Source of the DNA: Deinococcales bacterium
Lineage (GTDB): Bacteria > Deinococcota > Deinococci > Deinococcales > JAAFIG01
NCBI GenBank assembly: GCA_013298595.1
Contig: JAAFIG010000005.1
Span: 1-64,000, forward strand
Direction of reading: 5' to 3'
Length of the DNA stretch: 64,000 bases
Each line of letters opens with the position of its first letter. Positions within the stretch are counted from its first letter, which is position 1. Under the pieces are notes generated by a model. The model saw only the letters and a program-made list of their open reading frames with translations. It had not been told where the DNA came from and did not search any database. Made by a program: the position numbers and the translations under genes. This document shows positions 3,486 to 23,261 of the stretch, piece after piece.

Positions 3486-4484
3486 TTAACTTGCAAATGC
3501 AGGAACACGAACAGGTTTTCTAAATTCAATATCCTCAGGTTCGCCACCATCTTCTCGCACTACCAAATGAGGGTTACTCGAGCGAAAAAATTCTACAATA
3601 CTCATCACCAAATCATCTGGTGTACTGGCGGCGCTGGTAATACCAACAGTTTTGACACCATCCAGCCAATCAGGTTTGATATCCGTTACGCTGTCCACTC
3701 GGTATGCTTCTTTGGTTATTTCTTCGGCAAGTTCGACCAAACGCATGCCATTTGAAGAAGTTAAACTCGAGACAACCAAAAACATATCCACTTGTGGCGC
3801 AATCACTTTGACCGCTGCTTGACGATTTTTGGTGGCGTAACACAAGTCACTTCTCGAGGGGATGGTTAAATTGGGAAAGCGCCTTTTTAGAACATCCACA
3901 GTTTTATCGGTATCGTCTACGGATAATGTGGTTTGGGTTAAAACAATGCACTTATCAGGATTTGGTACTTGCACAGTGTGTGGGTCTTGTAATTTAACAT
4001 CTGCTTTACGATTACCTAAAACACTGACCAGAATAGTATTTTCGGGGGCTTCACCAAATGTACCAATCACTTCCTGATGTGAACTCGAGTCGCCAATCAG
4101 TAAAATGCTAAAACCCATGGCGGCATAGCGTTTTGCCTCGGAATGCACTTTTGTGACTAAGGGGCAGGTCGCGTCCAGAGTAGTTAAACCACGTTTATTG
4201 GCTTCTTGGCGTACCACAGGCGAAATACCATGAGCACTAAAAACCACAGTGTTGCCCTGACCACTCATCTGCTCGAGTTCAGCAAGATTCTCAACAAAGC
4301 GCACATTGTGTTGCTGCTCAAGGCGTTCGACAACTGTGTGATTATGAACTATAGCGTGATAAGCAACGATATTTCCTTCTTGACGAACTGCATTTTCAGC
4401 AGCCGCTTCCTCGAGTGCTTCAATCGCCATGACGACACCAGCACAGTATCCACGAGGACGAGCTAAAATGACGGTCTCTACCAT
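3486..4484 (-). CDS. ispH: 4-hydroxy-3-methylbut-2-enyl diphosphate reductase
   Basis: IspH (LytB) is the last enzyme of the MEP isoprenoid pathway, reducing HMBPP to IPP and DMAPP with a [4Fe-4S] cluster. The three cluster cysteines are visible: RGYCAGV (Cys14), DATCPLV and SDLCYAT. So are the HNHTVV and FSAHGIS substrate-pocket motifs and [11 protein letters not shown] near the C-terminus. At 332 residues the length is normal. TATGCT at 4491-4496 lies six bases before the ATG, suggesting leaderless expression. Confidence 0.95.
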
Positions 4485-4511
4485 GCGCCGAGCATAGCGC
4501 GATTCAAGAAG

Positions 4512-5384
4512 TCAACTGTCTCGAGGTGAAGGTCGGGCTAACCAACCACCTAAAAACAGCAACCCAGCCGCAAGCGCAAAACTCGAGCTAAGTTGCTCTT
4601 TGAGTAGCAATGCCCCAAGCAACGAACCCACAATGGGCTGGGCAAAAAATGCAATGCCAGATAAAACACTGCCTGCCCTCGAGACTCCGTATACCCAAAG
4701 TGCAAAAGCAACGGCTGTGGAAATAATACCCACGTAAAAAACACCAAGTAAAACCAGAGGTGTGATGGCTTGCCACTGAATTGGACTTGTCTCGAGTGGA
4801 ATCAGTGCTGTTGTGCCAAGGCAACCAATCAGACTTGCCCAAGCTGTGACTGCAAAAGCATCGAGTTTAGCAACAGTTTGCCCACCCACTACACCAAGGA
4901 CACCCCATGTGAAAGCAGCCAAGAGTAACCACAGTGCACCAGCCACGTTACCACCTTCATTAACGCCTGAGAGTAAATAGACTGCCAGCAAGCCAAATCC
5001 TAAACCCAGCCAAGCTCGGATAGGTACTTTCTCGAGACCAAAGGTTGCCGCAATTGCCACCGTAAAAAGTGGTGAAGCGGTGGTAATCAGACTACCTAGG
5101 GCTGCGCCTGCTAATTTTGTACCAATAAATTGAGCACAAATACTGACAACATAACCAACTACGCCCATAATGGCAACCTGCCCCCAAGCAGCTCGGGGGA
5201 TACGCCATTCACGACGCATCAAAGCGTACACTATAAAAATTGTTAATGCTGAAATCAGCATCCGTAATGCCACCAGAGGAATAGGTGGTATGACCTCAAG
5301 TACAACTCGAGAAATAACATACATCCCACCCCAAATAGCACTGGCTGCTAATGCTGCCAGAAAACCTTTTTGCACAGAACTCAT
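4512..5384 (-). CDS. EamA/DMT-superfamily membrane exporter
   Basis: About 290 residues with ten predicted hydrophobic helices in two homologous halves, each resembling an EamA domain (AIWGGMYVISRV...PPIPLVALR and AFTWGVLGVVGGQ). The family exports amino acids, nucleosides or other small metabolites, and the substrate cannot be read from sequence. TAAAGT immediately abuts the ATG, so a leaderless start at the GTG four codons in is possible. It diverges from a small gene at 5577. Confidence 0.8.
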   Translation of the reverse strand: MSSVQKGFLAALAASAIWGGMYVISRVVLEVIPPIPLVALRMLISALTIFIVYALMRREWRIPRAAWGQVAIMGVVGYVVSICAQFIGTKLAGAALGSLITTASPLFTVAIAATFGLEKVPIRAWLGLGFGLLAVYLLSGVNEGGNVAGALWLLLAAFTWGVLGVVGGQTVAKLDAFAVTAWASLIGCLGTTALIPLETSPIQWQAITPLVLLGVFYVGIISTAVAFALWVYGVSRAGSVLSGIAFFAQPIVGSLLGALLLKEQLSSSFALAAGLLFLGGWLARPSPRDS

Positions 5385-18700: not shown

Positions 18701-20680
18701 ATGAGCGAACTCAAAAATGATTCTACGGCAGCAGCACACGAACAACCACACACCTTAAAGGACTGGTTACTCGAGGGCGCAAAAGAACCCGAAGGGGCAT
18801 TTGAATCCGAATCCGAAGTTGCAGCCCAGCATCATACGCAACCTTGGTGGAAGGTCATGTGTTTAACAGGTGTGGATTACTTTTCCTCACTGGGCTATCA
18901 ACCTGCTTTGGCTGCACTGGCAGCTGGGGCATTATCACCATTTGCCACACTGATTCTGGTGTTGGTAACGCTTTTTGGAGCCTTGCCAATGTACCGCCGA
19001 GTGGCAGCCGAAAGCCCGCACGGACAAGGTAGTTTATCCATGCTTGAGTCTTTACTGACATGGTGGGCAGGTAAATTAACTGTACTTGTGTTGCTTGGGT
19101 TTGCTATGACAGGTTTTATTATTACCATTACATTGTCAGCTTCGGACGCAGCAGCTCACATTATCGAAAACCCGTTGGTGCATCAATTTGTTGAAGGTAA
19201 AGCCGTACTGATTACATTAGTACTGATTTTGTTGCTGGGTGCTGTATTCTTAAAAGGTTTCTCGGAAGCTATTGGTATTGCTGTGGTTTTAGTTATTGCT
19301 TTCCTTGGCTTAAATGCTGTGGTTTTAGCCCGTTCTTTTTACGAGATTTTTACCCATCCAAATTATCTTCCAGATTGGCAGAGTTTAGTGAGTTTACGTG
19401 TCGATAATCCAGTGGGATTATTTGTTGCCTCATTTTTATTATTTCCACAACTGGCACTTGGCTTATCAGGTTTTGAAACAGGCGTTGCTGTTATTCCATT
19501 GGTGCGTGGTAATGCCAACGATAACCCTAAAAAACCATTAGGGCGTATTCGCAATGCCAAACGCCTTTTAACGGTAGCAGCTATTATTATGAGTGTCTAC
19601 TTACTGACTTCAAGCTTTGTGACCACATTGGTCATTCCAGCCGAGGAATTCCAAAAAGGTGGAGAAGCCAACGGGCGTGCCCTTGCTTACCTAGCCCATA
19701 AATTCTTAGGAGACGGTTTCGGTACGCTTTATGATGTCAGTACCATCCTGATTCTTTGGTTTGCAGGCGCAAGTGCTGTTGCTGCGCTGTTAAATTTAGT
19801 ACCACGCTACTTACCACGTTACGGTATGGCACCTGATTGGGCACGAGCCAACCGTCCATTAGTCATTTTGTTTACAGCCATTAGTGTAGCTGTTACAGTT
19901 GCATTTAACGCCGATGTCGAAGCCCAAGCGGGTGCATATGCAACAGGTGTACTGGCATTGTTCTCGAGTGCTGCTATTGCTGTAACACTTTCGGCTCGTA
20001 AAAAAGGACAAATTGGTTCAACGATTATGTTTGGTATCATCACTGCCATTATGTTGTTTGCCACAATTCACAACATTCTTGATCGTCCCGATGGTTTACG
20101 AATCGCAGGTGTGTTCATTGCAGGTATTGTTACTGTCAGTTTACTCTCCAGAACGTTTCGTAGTTTGGAACTTCGGGCGACAAAAATCGAATTGGATACC
20201 ACTGCCCAAAAATTCATTGATGACTTAGCTCATGGTGAGTTACGCATCATTGCCAATCGTCAGCAACGTGGTGATGAAGCCGAATACTACGATAAAGAAT
20301 TGCGTCAACGCGAAGATCATCATATCGAAGAACGCGAACCAGTGGTCTTTCTCGAGATTGAAATTTCTGATGCTTCCGATTTTGAGGATGTACTGCGAAT
20401 TCGTGGTGTTGAATTGACTGGTGAATGTGGCAAGTACCGAATTATGCGGGTTAAAGCACCTGCTGTACCAAATGCCATCGCTGCTTTCTTGTTGTACATC
20501 CGAGATGAAACGCATTTACAACCACATTGTTATTTCACATGGTCAGACGGTAATCCAATCCGTCATTTAATGAGGTATGTGCTGTTTGGCGAAGGTGATA
20601 CAGCCCCAATTACTCGAGAAATTTTGCGTCGTAACGAACCAAACCCTAAGCTTCGCCCAATGATTCACGTTGGTGGGTAA
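18701..20680 (+). CDS. APC-family transporter with C-terminal cytosolic domain
   Basis: A 659-residue integral membrane protein. The first 60 residues are hydrophilic and acidic, then about twelve hydrophobic helices begin with [20 protein letters not shown], an APC-superfamily start also seen in KUP-like permeases. A soluble region of about 170 residues follows, with an acidic/His-rich linker ([11 protein letters not shown]). The substrate may be an amino acid or K+ and cannot be decided here. GGGAG lies five bases before the ATG and TAGAAT about 36 bases upstream. It has only about four CTCGAG in 2 kb, a notable shortfall. Confidence 0.75.
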
Positions 20681-20701
20681 TACCCATTCTCTAATGCTAT
20701 G

Positions 20702-20735
20702 AGTCAAAGGTCAAAACTGACCTTTGACTTTTTGC
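20702..20735 (+). terminator. Terminator after the APC transporter
   Basis: AGTCAAAGGTCA (20702-20713) and TGACCTTTGACT (20718-20729) form a perfect 12-bp stem followed by TTTTGC. The convergent csaB gene ends six bases later. Confidence 0.85.
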
Positions 20736-20740
20736 TTGTT

Positions 20741-21727
20741 TTAGGCTTTTTGCTCGAGCGCCCAAGCAAAACTGGCTCGAGCACGATCTTTCATGGCTTG
20801 GACAGCTTGCCAATTGGGTTGGTGTTGCTCAAGGATAGCGGTTTCTAAAATATTGATATCAAATGTGGTTGGTAACTCGAGAGCGTTAGCATCGCGGCAG
20901 AAGCCTTGAACTTTTGGGTCGTAAGATATGCCATAAAACGGCACTCGAGCCGCTGCTGCTAGAATCACGGCGTGCAGTCGAACACCAATAACAGCCCCAC
21001 TTTGGGCGATTAACTCAAGTGCTCGAGCTGGGTTGGCAGTGCTTTCGATGCGGGTATTAGCAATACCATCAAAGGCTTTTAATTCGTCATCATCCCAACC
21101 TGGTTGAAAACCAAGCACAACCACATGTTTGCCTTTTTGTACAAGCCGTTTGGTTAATTCAACTAAACAATCGGTGGCAGCAGCCTGACCTTCTCGAGGT
21201 GCAATCAGCACTTGGTTTGGATCTTGGATAATGTTTGTTGGTGCTTCAAGTAACAAGGCAGGATCGCCACCAAGTTGGACTTTGACCCCTAAACGCTCAA
21301 GTAAACCTTGGCTACCAGTATCTCGGACAATGTTAATCACATTACCTAAAGCTTTGGCAACCCGAGTGCAACCAGTATCGGAGAGAGGACCAATACTTTG
21401 GTTAAAAACAGCTACGCGTTTACCAAGGAATTTGGCAAGCCCAATAATACCAAGGTAATACGTTAAGGTGCGACTCGAGGTTTTATCTTGTAGTAATCCA
21501 CCACCACCAGAAAGCACCACGTCTGTGCCAAGAATAGCCAACGGAGTCTCGAGTGGACTCATACGTTTGACAGCTTTGACACCATATAAATTGGCTGTTT
21601 GGGTTGGGTTTGCACTGAGCACCGAAACCGAATGCCCTAACCGAGTTAATTCTCGAGTGATTGCCAGACAAATGGCTTCATCGCCTGTGTTTTCAAAACC
21701 ATAATAACCGCAGAGAAGTATTTTCAT
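20741..21727 (-). CDS. csaB: Polysaccharide pyruvyl transferase (CsaB-like)
   Basis: A 328-residue enzyme expected to add a ketal pyruvate to a cell-wall polysaccharide, which in Bacillus and Thermus-type envelopes anchors SLH-domain S-layer proteins. Motifs: CGYYGFENTGDEAICLA at the start, LSGGGGLLQDKTSS, FNQSIGPLSD, and IGVRLHAVILAAAARVPFYGISYDPKV near the C-terminus. It starts 49 bases downstream of the PLP-like/HRDC gene on the same strand without a clear promoter, so the two are probably co-transcribed. Confidence 0.85.
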   Translation of the reverse strand: MKILLCGYYGFENTGDEAICLAITRELTRLGHSVSVLSANPTQTANLYGVKAVKRMSPLETPLAILGTDVVLSGGGGLLQDKTSSRTLTYYLGIIGLAKFLGKRVAVFNQSIGPLSDTGCTRVAKALGNVINIVRDTGSQGLLERLGVKVQLGGDPALLLEAPTNIIQDPNQVLIAPREGQAAATDCLVELTKRLVQKGKHVVVLGFQPGWDDDELKAFDGIANTRIESTANPARALELIAQSGAVIGVRLHAVILAAAARVPFYGISYDPKVQGFCRDANALELPTTFDINILETAILEQHQPNWQAVQAMKDRARASFAWALEQKA

Positions 21728-21776: not shown

Positions 21777-23261
21777 CTATTTTACATTTGGTTTTTTCTT
21801 ACGGCGACGCTTGCGTTTTGGATCAAAATTCGGATTCACCGGAATTGCATTGGGTTTTTCCTTAGGCATACTGACTTCCAAAGCAGGCAATTGTTCGAGC
21901 CAATTAATTTCAGGTTTTTTCAGTAATTCGAGAATGGCATGACCATAGCGCTCGAGTTTCTTTTGCCCAATACCTTTGATGGTGGCAAGGGTTTCAACAT
22001 TGTTAGGTTGCTGTTTAGCAATTTCTGCCAAGATAGCGTTTGAAGCAATTAAAAAACGACTTGTATTTTGTTCTATAGCCTGTTGGTCACGCCAAATTCG
22101 TAAAGTCACAAAGCGTTTCAAGGCAGCATTATCCAACGCTCGAGTTGGATCTTCAAGTGCTGCCAGTGGTGCATTCGGTTCGCCATCCGGTTCGTCAGGC
22201 TCGAGTGGCTCTGGTTCTGGAGTGACTTCCAGCGCAGCTTCTAAAGCATTCTCGAGCGACCGCCACAAATCTTGAGGGTCTTCTAAACCAATTGAAATGC
22301 GAACAACGGTTTCGGGAATACCCAAATTCAGATTCTCGAGTGCCCGATGACTGGTGCGTCCAACTTGGCAAGCGGCACTATCGGTGCTGCCATACCAATC
22401 TGAGGTTTCAAAATAGCGTAATTTATCAATAAACGTTTTTGCGGCTTCAGGCACAGCAAATTCTAAGGCAATACAAGCCCCATTAAACTCTCTGCCATCA
22501 CGGGTTTGATGGGCTTCGCTACTCGGGTAAGCAATACCAGTCAAAGCAGCATGTCCCTCGAGTTTTGTTAAGAGCAGTTGTGTGGTGTTGCTCTGTTTTT
22601 CTTGGCGCACCGATAAGGTTTTTAAACCACGCAAAGCACTACCACAAACTTGCGCATTGGGGCGTGAACCCACAGTATCGCGGTGACCACGAATACGCTC
22701 AAGTAATTCTTCCGAGCGACCTAGCACTGCGCCAAATGCCAAGGTATAATCACCAGTTAAAGCTGCTGCACTCGAGTAAATCACAGCATCAGCAGCAAAC
22801 TCGAGCGGACGACAAGCAAAAGCAGTTAATAAACTATTTTCGACTAGCAAAATAGCTCCAGCCTGATGCGCTTTAGAAGCTAAATTCGAGAGTTGCAAAC
22901 TGGTTAAAGTTGCCAAACTCGGATTTTCCACATAGACCGCACTGACCCCATCAAAACTGACTTCAGGATCGGTTAAGTCATTGAACTCAATTTCGATATC
23001 CCATTCAGCAAGTGCCGAAAAAGCCCGTACAGCTAAACTCGAGCTTTCAAAATGCAACACCAATTTATCTTGCGGACGCAACAACCGAGCCACAGCATCC
23101 AAAGCTGCTCGACCAGAACCAAACGCCACACCCCACGCGCCACGACCCGCTAAACCACTCGCCTCGAGTGCCCCCAGACGAGCTTCAAGCTGCGCCAAAG
23201 GATTCGGGATTTGTTGTTCAGCGCGGACAGCGAGACTATCAAAACGAAAACCATCATCCAT
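21777..23261 (-). CDS. Degenerate Cys/Met-metabolism PLP-enzyme fold fused to an HRDC domain
   Basis: 494 residues. Residues 1-340 follow the cystathionine gamma-synthase/lyase fold (AFGSGRAALDAVARLL; RPLEFAADAV; VRISIGLEDPQDLWRSLENAL). The PLP lysine is missing: the family's S-A-T-K is SSAA at 163-166, with Ala166 at the Lys position. The cofactor Asp (VDNT) is Glu141 (VENS). An acidic linker (346-372) leads to a full HRDC domain (380-449, GIGQKKLERYG), the DNA-binding module of RecQ helicases, and a basic tail (KRKRRRKKK). From memory a similar fusion, DR2444, is known in Deinococcus radiodurans. A catalytically dead scaffold acting on DNA is my inference. Confidence 0.85.
   Translation of the reverse strand: MDDGFRFDSLAVRAEQQIPNPLAQLEARLGALEASGLAGRGAWGVAFGSGRAALDAVARLLRPQDKLVLHFESSSLAVRAFSALAEWDIEIEFNDLTDPEVSFDGVSAVYVENPSLATLTSLQLSNLASKAHQAGAILLVENSLLTAFACRPLEFAADAVIYSSAAALTGDYTLAFGAVLGRSEELLERIRGHRDTVGSRPNAQVCGSALRGLKTLSVRQEKQSNTTQLLLTKLEGHAALTGIAYPSSEAHQTRDGREFNGACIALEFAVPEAAKTFIDKLRYFETSDWYGSTDSAACQVGRTSHRALENLNLGIPETVVRISIGLEDPQDLWRSLENALEAALEVTPEPEPLEPDEPDGEPNAPLAALEDPTRALDNAALKRFVTLRIWRDQQAIEQNTSRFLIASNAILAEIAKQQPNNVETLATIKGIGQKKLERYGHAILELLKKPEINWLEQLPALEVSMPKEKPNAIPVNPNFDPKRKRRRKKKPNVK

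Follow-up and report, generated by a model that had tools for sequence, protein, structure and literature searches.

A predicted PLP-fold pseudoenzyme fused to an HRDC domain is maintained under purifying selection in Deinococcales

The 64,000-nt stretch of DNA analysed here (the window) encodes, on its reverse strand, a 494-aa protein with an ATG start (21777..23261) in which a pyridoxal phosphate (PLP) fold of the Cys/Met-metabolism type is joined to an HRDC domain. Judged by its residues, this protein is a pseudoenzyme without catalytic capacity, and its dead fold is under purifying selection, with a dN/dS of about 0.13. We propose, at about even probability, that it is an oligomeric pseudoenzyme scaffold which exposes HRDC domains for binding to nucleic acid and assists repair or RNA metabolism.

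The preliminary description of this DNA had the coordinates, strand and length of the gene right. Residues 1-345 (22227..23261, reverse strand, as are all parts of the gene) form the PLP-enzyme fold, which is acidic (net charge about -15, pI 4.9), dead by its residues and devoid of the N-terminal Tyr/Arg arm. They are followed by an acidic and proline-rich linker (residues 346-378, 22128..22226), an HRDC domain (residues 379-449, 21915..22127, net charge +5.9, pI 10.2) and a C-terminal tail that contains a run of Lys/Arg (residues 450-494, 21780..21914, net charge +7.0, pI 10.4). Pfam matched Cys_Met_Meta_PP (PF01053) to residues 25-341 (6.8e-41; 140.5 bits against a curated cut-off of 27) and HRDC (PF00570) to residues 381-447 (6e-20; 71.4 bits against a cut-off of 23.8), the latter spanning positions 2-68 of the 68-position profile. 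These values bear out the earlier assignment of the HRDC domain as canonical, and the tail is basic as described; it is kept in the window's family, f1, and is missing in the sister family f2. Across the 494 aa, Pfam found no helicase or exonuclease domain and no GntR-type winged helix at the N-terminus, where residues 1-345 are the PLP fold. The protein reached no NCBIfam equivalog, the best being a cystathionine gamma-lyase model, for which it scored 153 bits where 440 are required.

The window protein, its L038 sister and nine enzymes from viral contigs were modelled with AlphaFold2. The PLP domain was mostly well predicted, the linker and tail had low confidence, and the HRDC domain was of moderate confidence (blocks about 45-65). 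The modelled PLP domain is predicted to have fold type I architecture and superposed on cystathionine gamma-lyases and methionine gamma-lyases with Z 39 at 2.1-2.2 A over 333-334 residues, among them 4q31 (Z 39.4, rmsd 2.2, 333 residues) and 5tsu (Z 39.3, 2.1, 334 residues); Foldseek concurred. The fold shared with these PF01053 enzymes, cystathionine gamma-synthase included, comes with only 22-30% identity to the solved members, and the fusion differs from them in having an HRDC domain and in lacking the Schiff-base lysine, the N-terminal Tyr/Arg arm and the stacking tyrosine. The fold had been described as complete, but it is not quite so: it lacks about 33-37 residues close to the N-terminus, namely the arm whose Tyr/Arg reaches the PLP phosphate of the partner subunit. 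The solved HRDC domains closest to that of the fusion all come from RecQ (2ma1, 1wud, 2rhf). It shares the canonical sequence of RecQ HRDC domains but has no helicase or nuclease joined to it.

We aligned the fusion and its four homologues with 31 intact relatives, using the residue numbers of methionine gamma-lyase (Tyr59, Arg61, Tyr114 and so on) and the established roles of these residues. The Schiff-base position is A, S, A, A and A in the five fusions and Lys in 31/31 intact relatives, so that the suspected loss of the lysine at Ala166 (codon GCA, 22764..22766) is borne out and extends to both Deinococcales families. The suspected exchange of the Asp in contact with the pyridine nitrogen (Asp186 equivalent) for Glu141 (codon GAA, 22839..22841) is likewise real, this Asp being present in all 31 intact relatives, but it is private to the window gene, since the four sister fusions have Asp. 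The equivalents of Met90, Tyr114 and Thr210 are gone from all five fusions, which thus have neither the stacking Tyr nor the Thr next to the lysine. The f1 proteins lack the Tyr59/Arg61 arm through a deletion and the f2 proteins lack its motif, although G001 has an Arg in the aligned column. The Asn161 equivalent is lost in f1 and falls in an alignment gap in f2. The f1 proteins retain the equivalents of Gly89, Asn187, Ser208 and Arg375. Among 90 columns that are at least 90% conserved in the intact enzymes, 40 are unaltered in f1 and 18 in all five fusions.

The protein might still be a PLP or PMP enzyme with another residue in the lysine's stead, as the Asp141 equivalent is retained in four of the five fusions. 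The PLP domain has seven lysines that were considered as replacements, K66, K130, K214, K222, K233, K275 and K280, and none is conserved in all five. Only K214 and K222 are invariant within f1. K214 matches a methionine gamma-lyase lysine which presumably lies near the neighbouring subunit's active site. However, it accompanies the catalytic lysine in 28/31 intact enzymes and is therefore likely to have another role, and it is replaced by Pro or Ser in f2. No alternative lysine thus appears to be a convincing substitute, and, with the phosphate and ring contacts gone as well, retained catalysis is extremely unlikely.

The preliminary description had advised surveying the lineage for the fusion, and a survey of 111 genomes of the phylum, seemingly without Deinococcaceae, revealed five fusions across two Deinococcales families. 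Close full-length homologues were found in the f1 genomes G005 (66%) and G007 (50%), the latter with a weak HRDC match (6e-11), and an HRDC-domain search with reading of the open reading frames added G001 and G002 of f2, whose PLP domains are further decayed (Pfam 1.1e-15 and 6.2e-11, respectively). Five is a small number and some of the genomes are fragmentary, G002 having a completeness of 58%, but the fusion is not an assembly accident, because four homologues in other genomes share the architecture. In the PLP-domain tree the five fusions formed one group (96/91), to be read with caution given the long f2 branches, and the nearest intact enzyme was L011 from a third family, with 39% identity and a complete HSATK motif. 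In a separately built HRDC tree, the five fusion HRDC domains also formed one group (94/92). The agreement of the two trees points to a single fusion event before f1 and f2 split, followed by vertical descent. The same genome keeps intact Cys/Met-metabolism paralogues with the lysine, one of them at 34% identity, and the fusion HRDC matches the HRDC domain of the genome's own RecQ with 48% identity over 58 residues.

Selection on the dead domain was estimated between the window and G005. Residues 1-215 gave a dN/dS of 0.13 (75% identity), residues 216-345 gave 0.16 (58%) and the HRDC domain 0.16 (58%), values that are rough because dS is near saturation. The pattern is reversed in f2, where G001 and G002 are 42% identical in the PLP domain and 64% in the HRDC domain. 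Therefore, f1 retains the dead fold most and f2 the HRDC domain most.

In f1 no part is more conserved than the dead large domain, which would also suit a ligand-gated nucleic-acid binder whose old active site would take up an anion, for example an amino acid or a phosphate ester, leave it unreacted, and in response switch the HRDC domain and tail on or off, much as a MocR/GabR protein without PLP might. The three f1 proteins agree in Arg321 (the substrate-carboxylate Arg), Gly50, Glu112, Asn142 and Ser163, and a new invariant Arg51 replaces the Met beside the phosphate site; Arg321, Ser163 and Asn142 of the old pocket, needless for a mere scaffold, argue against a plain scaffold. In contrast, f2 has Leu for Arg321, Gly for Ser163 and Ser for Asn142, and as 150/345 positions are invariant in f1, a few kept pocket residues are unremarkable. 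We consider gating by a ligand rather unlikely.

The fusion gene lies 49 bp upstream of csaB, a polysaccharide pyruvyl transferase gene on the same strand (20741..21727) whose product scores 272.6 bits with TIGR03609, the cut-off being 213.1. Where csaB and a permease gene converge, a pattern match revealed a terminator-like 13-bp stem (20701..20730) between them which is possibly the end of a fusion-csaB transcript. That permease gene (18701-20680) encodes a 659-aa permease-like membrane protein without a Pfam match at 0.01, and an 83% identical copy also adjoins csaB in G005. The fusion is directly upstream of csaB in all three f1 genomes that carry it, with a 4-bp stop/start overlap in G005 and G007 where the window has the 49-bp spacing. 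The unexpected partnership with a cell-wall gene pointed out earlier is thus adjacent and conserved in three f1 members, but in f2 trmH takes its place: in both f2 genomes, of two genera, the fusion precedes a SpoU/TrmH-type RNA methyltransferase gene. The cell-wall link is a property of one family, because f2 has trmH there, and the adjacency of the fusion and csaB may reflect shared transcription only. An ancient csaB link was ruled out, as f2 csaB (G001) follows a DUF5693 gene, as it does in Thermaceae-like genomes, and the f2 fusion precedes trmH. The csaB gene itself is present in 106/111 genomes; the f1 genome G006 (92% complete) has neither csaB nor the fusion, by joint loss or a shared assembly gap. 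On the other flank, G005 has genes for an NgoBV-type restriction endonuclease and for an m5C DNA methyltransferase immediately before the fusion (L089:1940-4001), a place taken by a GGDEF gene in the window. A search for an upstream radiation/desiccation response motif gave matches at chance level only, none of them close to the fusion gene.

In two genera the fusion has a trmH/SpoU neighbour, which overlaps it by 4 bp in G001, and this would fit an RNA-side accessory which would present tRNA or rRNA to a partner, with the HRDC domain acting as in RNase D. Nevertheless, the neighbour in the window's family is csaB and not an RNA gene, and the solved HRDC matches are all from RecQ, making an RNA-side role distinctly unlikely. 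A wider reading, possible but on the improbable side, is that the emptied PLP fold is an oligomeric, perhaps ligand-gated HRDC platform with one origin in Deinococcota, which was later coupled to different operons, those of cell-wall pyruvylation and of tRNA/rRNA methylation; metabolic pseudoenzymes of this class would then help to maintain the genome or RNA.

For the scaffold that we favour, the course of events would be as follows. A cystathionine gamma-synthase/lyase-type gene was probably fused once to an HRDC domain in the ancestor of the two Deinococcales families, and, as the sequences show, all descendants seen have lost the stacking tyrosine and the PLP-phosphate arm along with the catalytic lysine. 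The fold, retained under selection, would form the dimer or tetramer typical of its family and thereby bear two or four HRDC domains and basic tails on flexible acidic linkers. Jointly, these HRDC-tail arms may have high avidity for DNA that is branched or single-stranded, or for structured RNA, in a putative accessory role in repair or RNA metabolism. The preliminary description had seen the fold itself as turned into a DNA- or RNA-binding scaffold; a dead fold fused to an HRDC domain fits this, but a binding surface on the fold itself is less likely because of its charge (pI 4.9). The basic HRDC domain (pI 10.2) is consistent with nucleic-acid binding.

The dead members known from PLP-enzyme folds mostly act upon an active partner. 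By analogy with antizyme inhibitor and SPTLC1, which regulate their partners in other PLP families, the fusion protein could be a pseudo-subunit that forms a hetero-oligomer with the intact cystathionine gamma-synthase/lyase paralogue of the same genome (34% identity) and regulates it. However, f1 has a deletion of the arm (Tyr59*/Arg61*) with which a partner's active site would be completed, f2 does not have the motif of this arm, the HRDC domain and basic tail would be left unexplained, and the fusion gene has no linkage to sulfur-metabolism genes; this makes a pseudo-subunit very unlikely. In contrast to those dead relatives, the fusion lacks the arm that would complete a partner and bears a repair-type domain instead. 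In MocR/GabR regulators a winged helix at the N-terminus is followed by a fold-type-I domain that is PLP-competent. They and the fusion both join a fold-type-I PLP domain to a nucleic-acid-binding module, but in the fusion this module is a C-terminal HRDC domain and the PLP domain is dead.

The architecture itself has been known since 2007, when DR2444 of Deinococcus radiodurans was tabulated as a 'PLP-binding enzyme fused to HRD domain' (PMC1978522), a parallel which had been drawn in the preliminary description and proved real. The DR2444 mutant was reported as radiation resistant (PMC1978522), so the repair role may be minor. DR2444 and UWX64634 of D. rubellus are HRDC proteins without helicase or nuclease (PMC10614293), and DR_2444 showed a negative expression change in a strain lacking N4-cytosine methylation (PMC6712171). 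DR2444 thus shares with the fusion the phylum, the two-domain architecture and the absence of a helicase or nuclease, a likeness drawn from the published description; a plasmid collection yielded no Deinococcus orthologue covering 80% of the query, and a scan of a contig collection returned the sister genome's contig only. If DR2444 is orthologous, a protein labelled as a PLP-binding enzyme has relatives without the usual means of holding PLP; this would bear on an unexplained protein of a radiation-resistant bacterium. In the full-text literature searched, which leaves out most subscription papers, we found no mention of a loss of catalysis in PLP-HRDC fusions, though other papers may have described it; HRDC appeared together with cystathionine in no paper, and together with pyridoxal phosphate only in one on E. 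coli RNA-binding proteins.

Two further kinds of HRDC protein were observed. In families f1, f3 and f5, a second helicase-free type combines a hydrophobic segment of several membrane-like spans, which in one member bears a weak similarity to LiaF-TM, with a C-terminal HRDC domain (L083 of G000, with its HRDC domain at 4467-4652, and L072, L073, L075-L082 and L085-L087); a membrane-anchored HRDC domain looks odd. Proteins of 140-160 aa with a short, Pfam-unmatched N-terminal segment and an HRDC domain (L098 and L099, from G024 and G034) occur in most genomes of genus g12 and also in g11.

The window also contains 378 sites of the palindrome CTCGAG in positions 1-64000, roughly 30 times the expectation from base composition. 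No description of this iteration was found in the literature searched. In the 4.58 Mb of G000 there are 27,159 copies, about one per 169 bp, against 15 occurrences of the reversed control word GAGCTC. One-mismatch words are rare, and the density is equal in coding (5.9 per kb) and non-coding (6.0 per kb) DNA. The iteration occurs in 4/4 f1 genomes and 3/4 f2 genomes, G004 being the one without it, and resembles the cyanobacterial HIP1 repeat.
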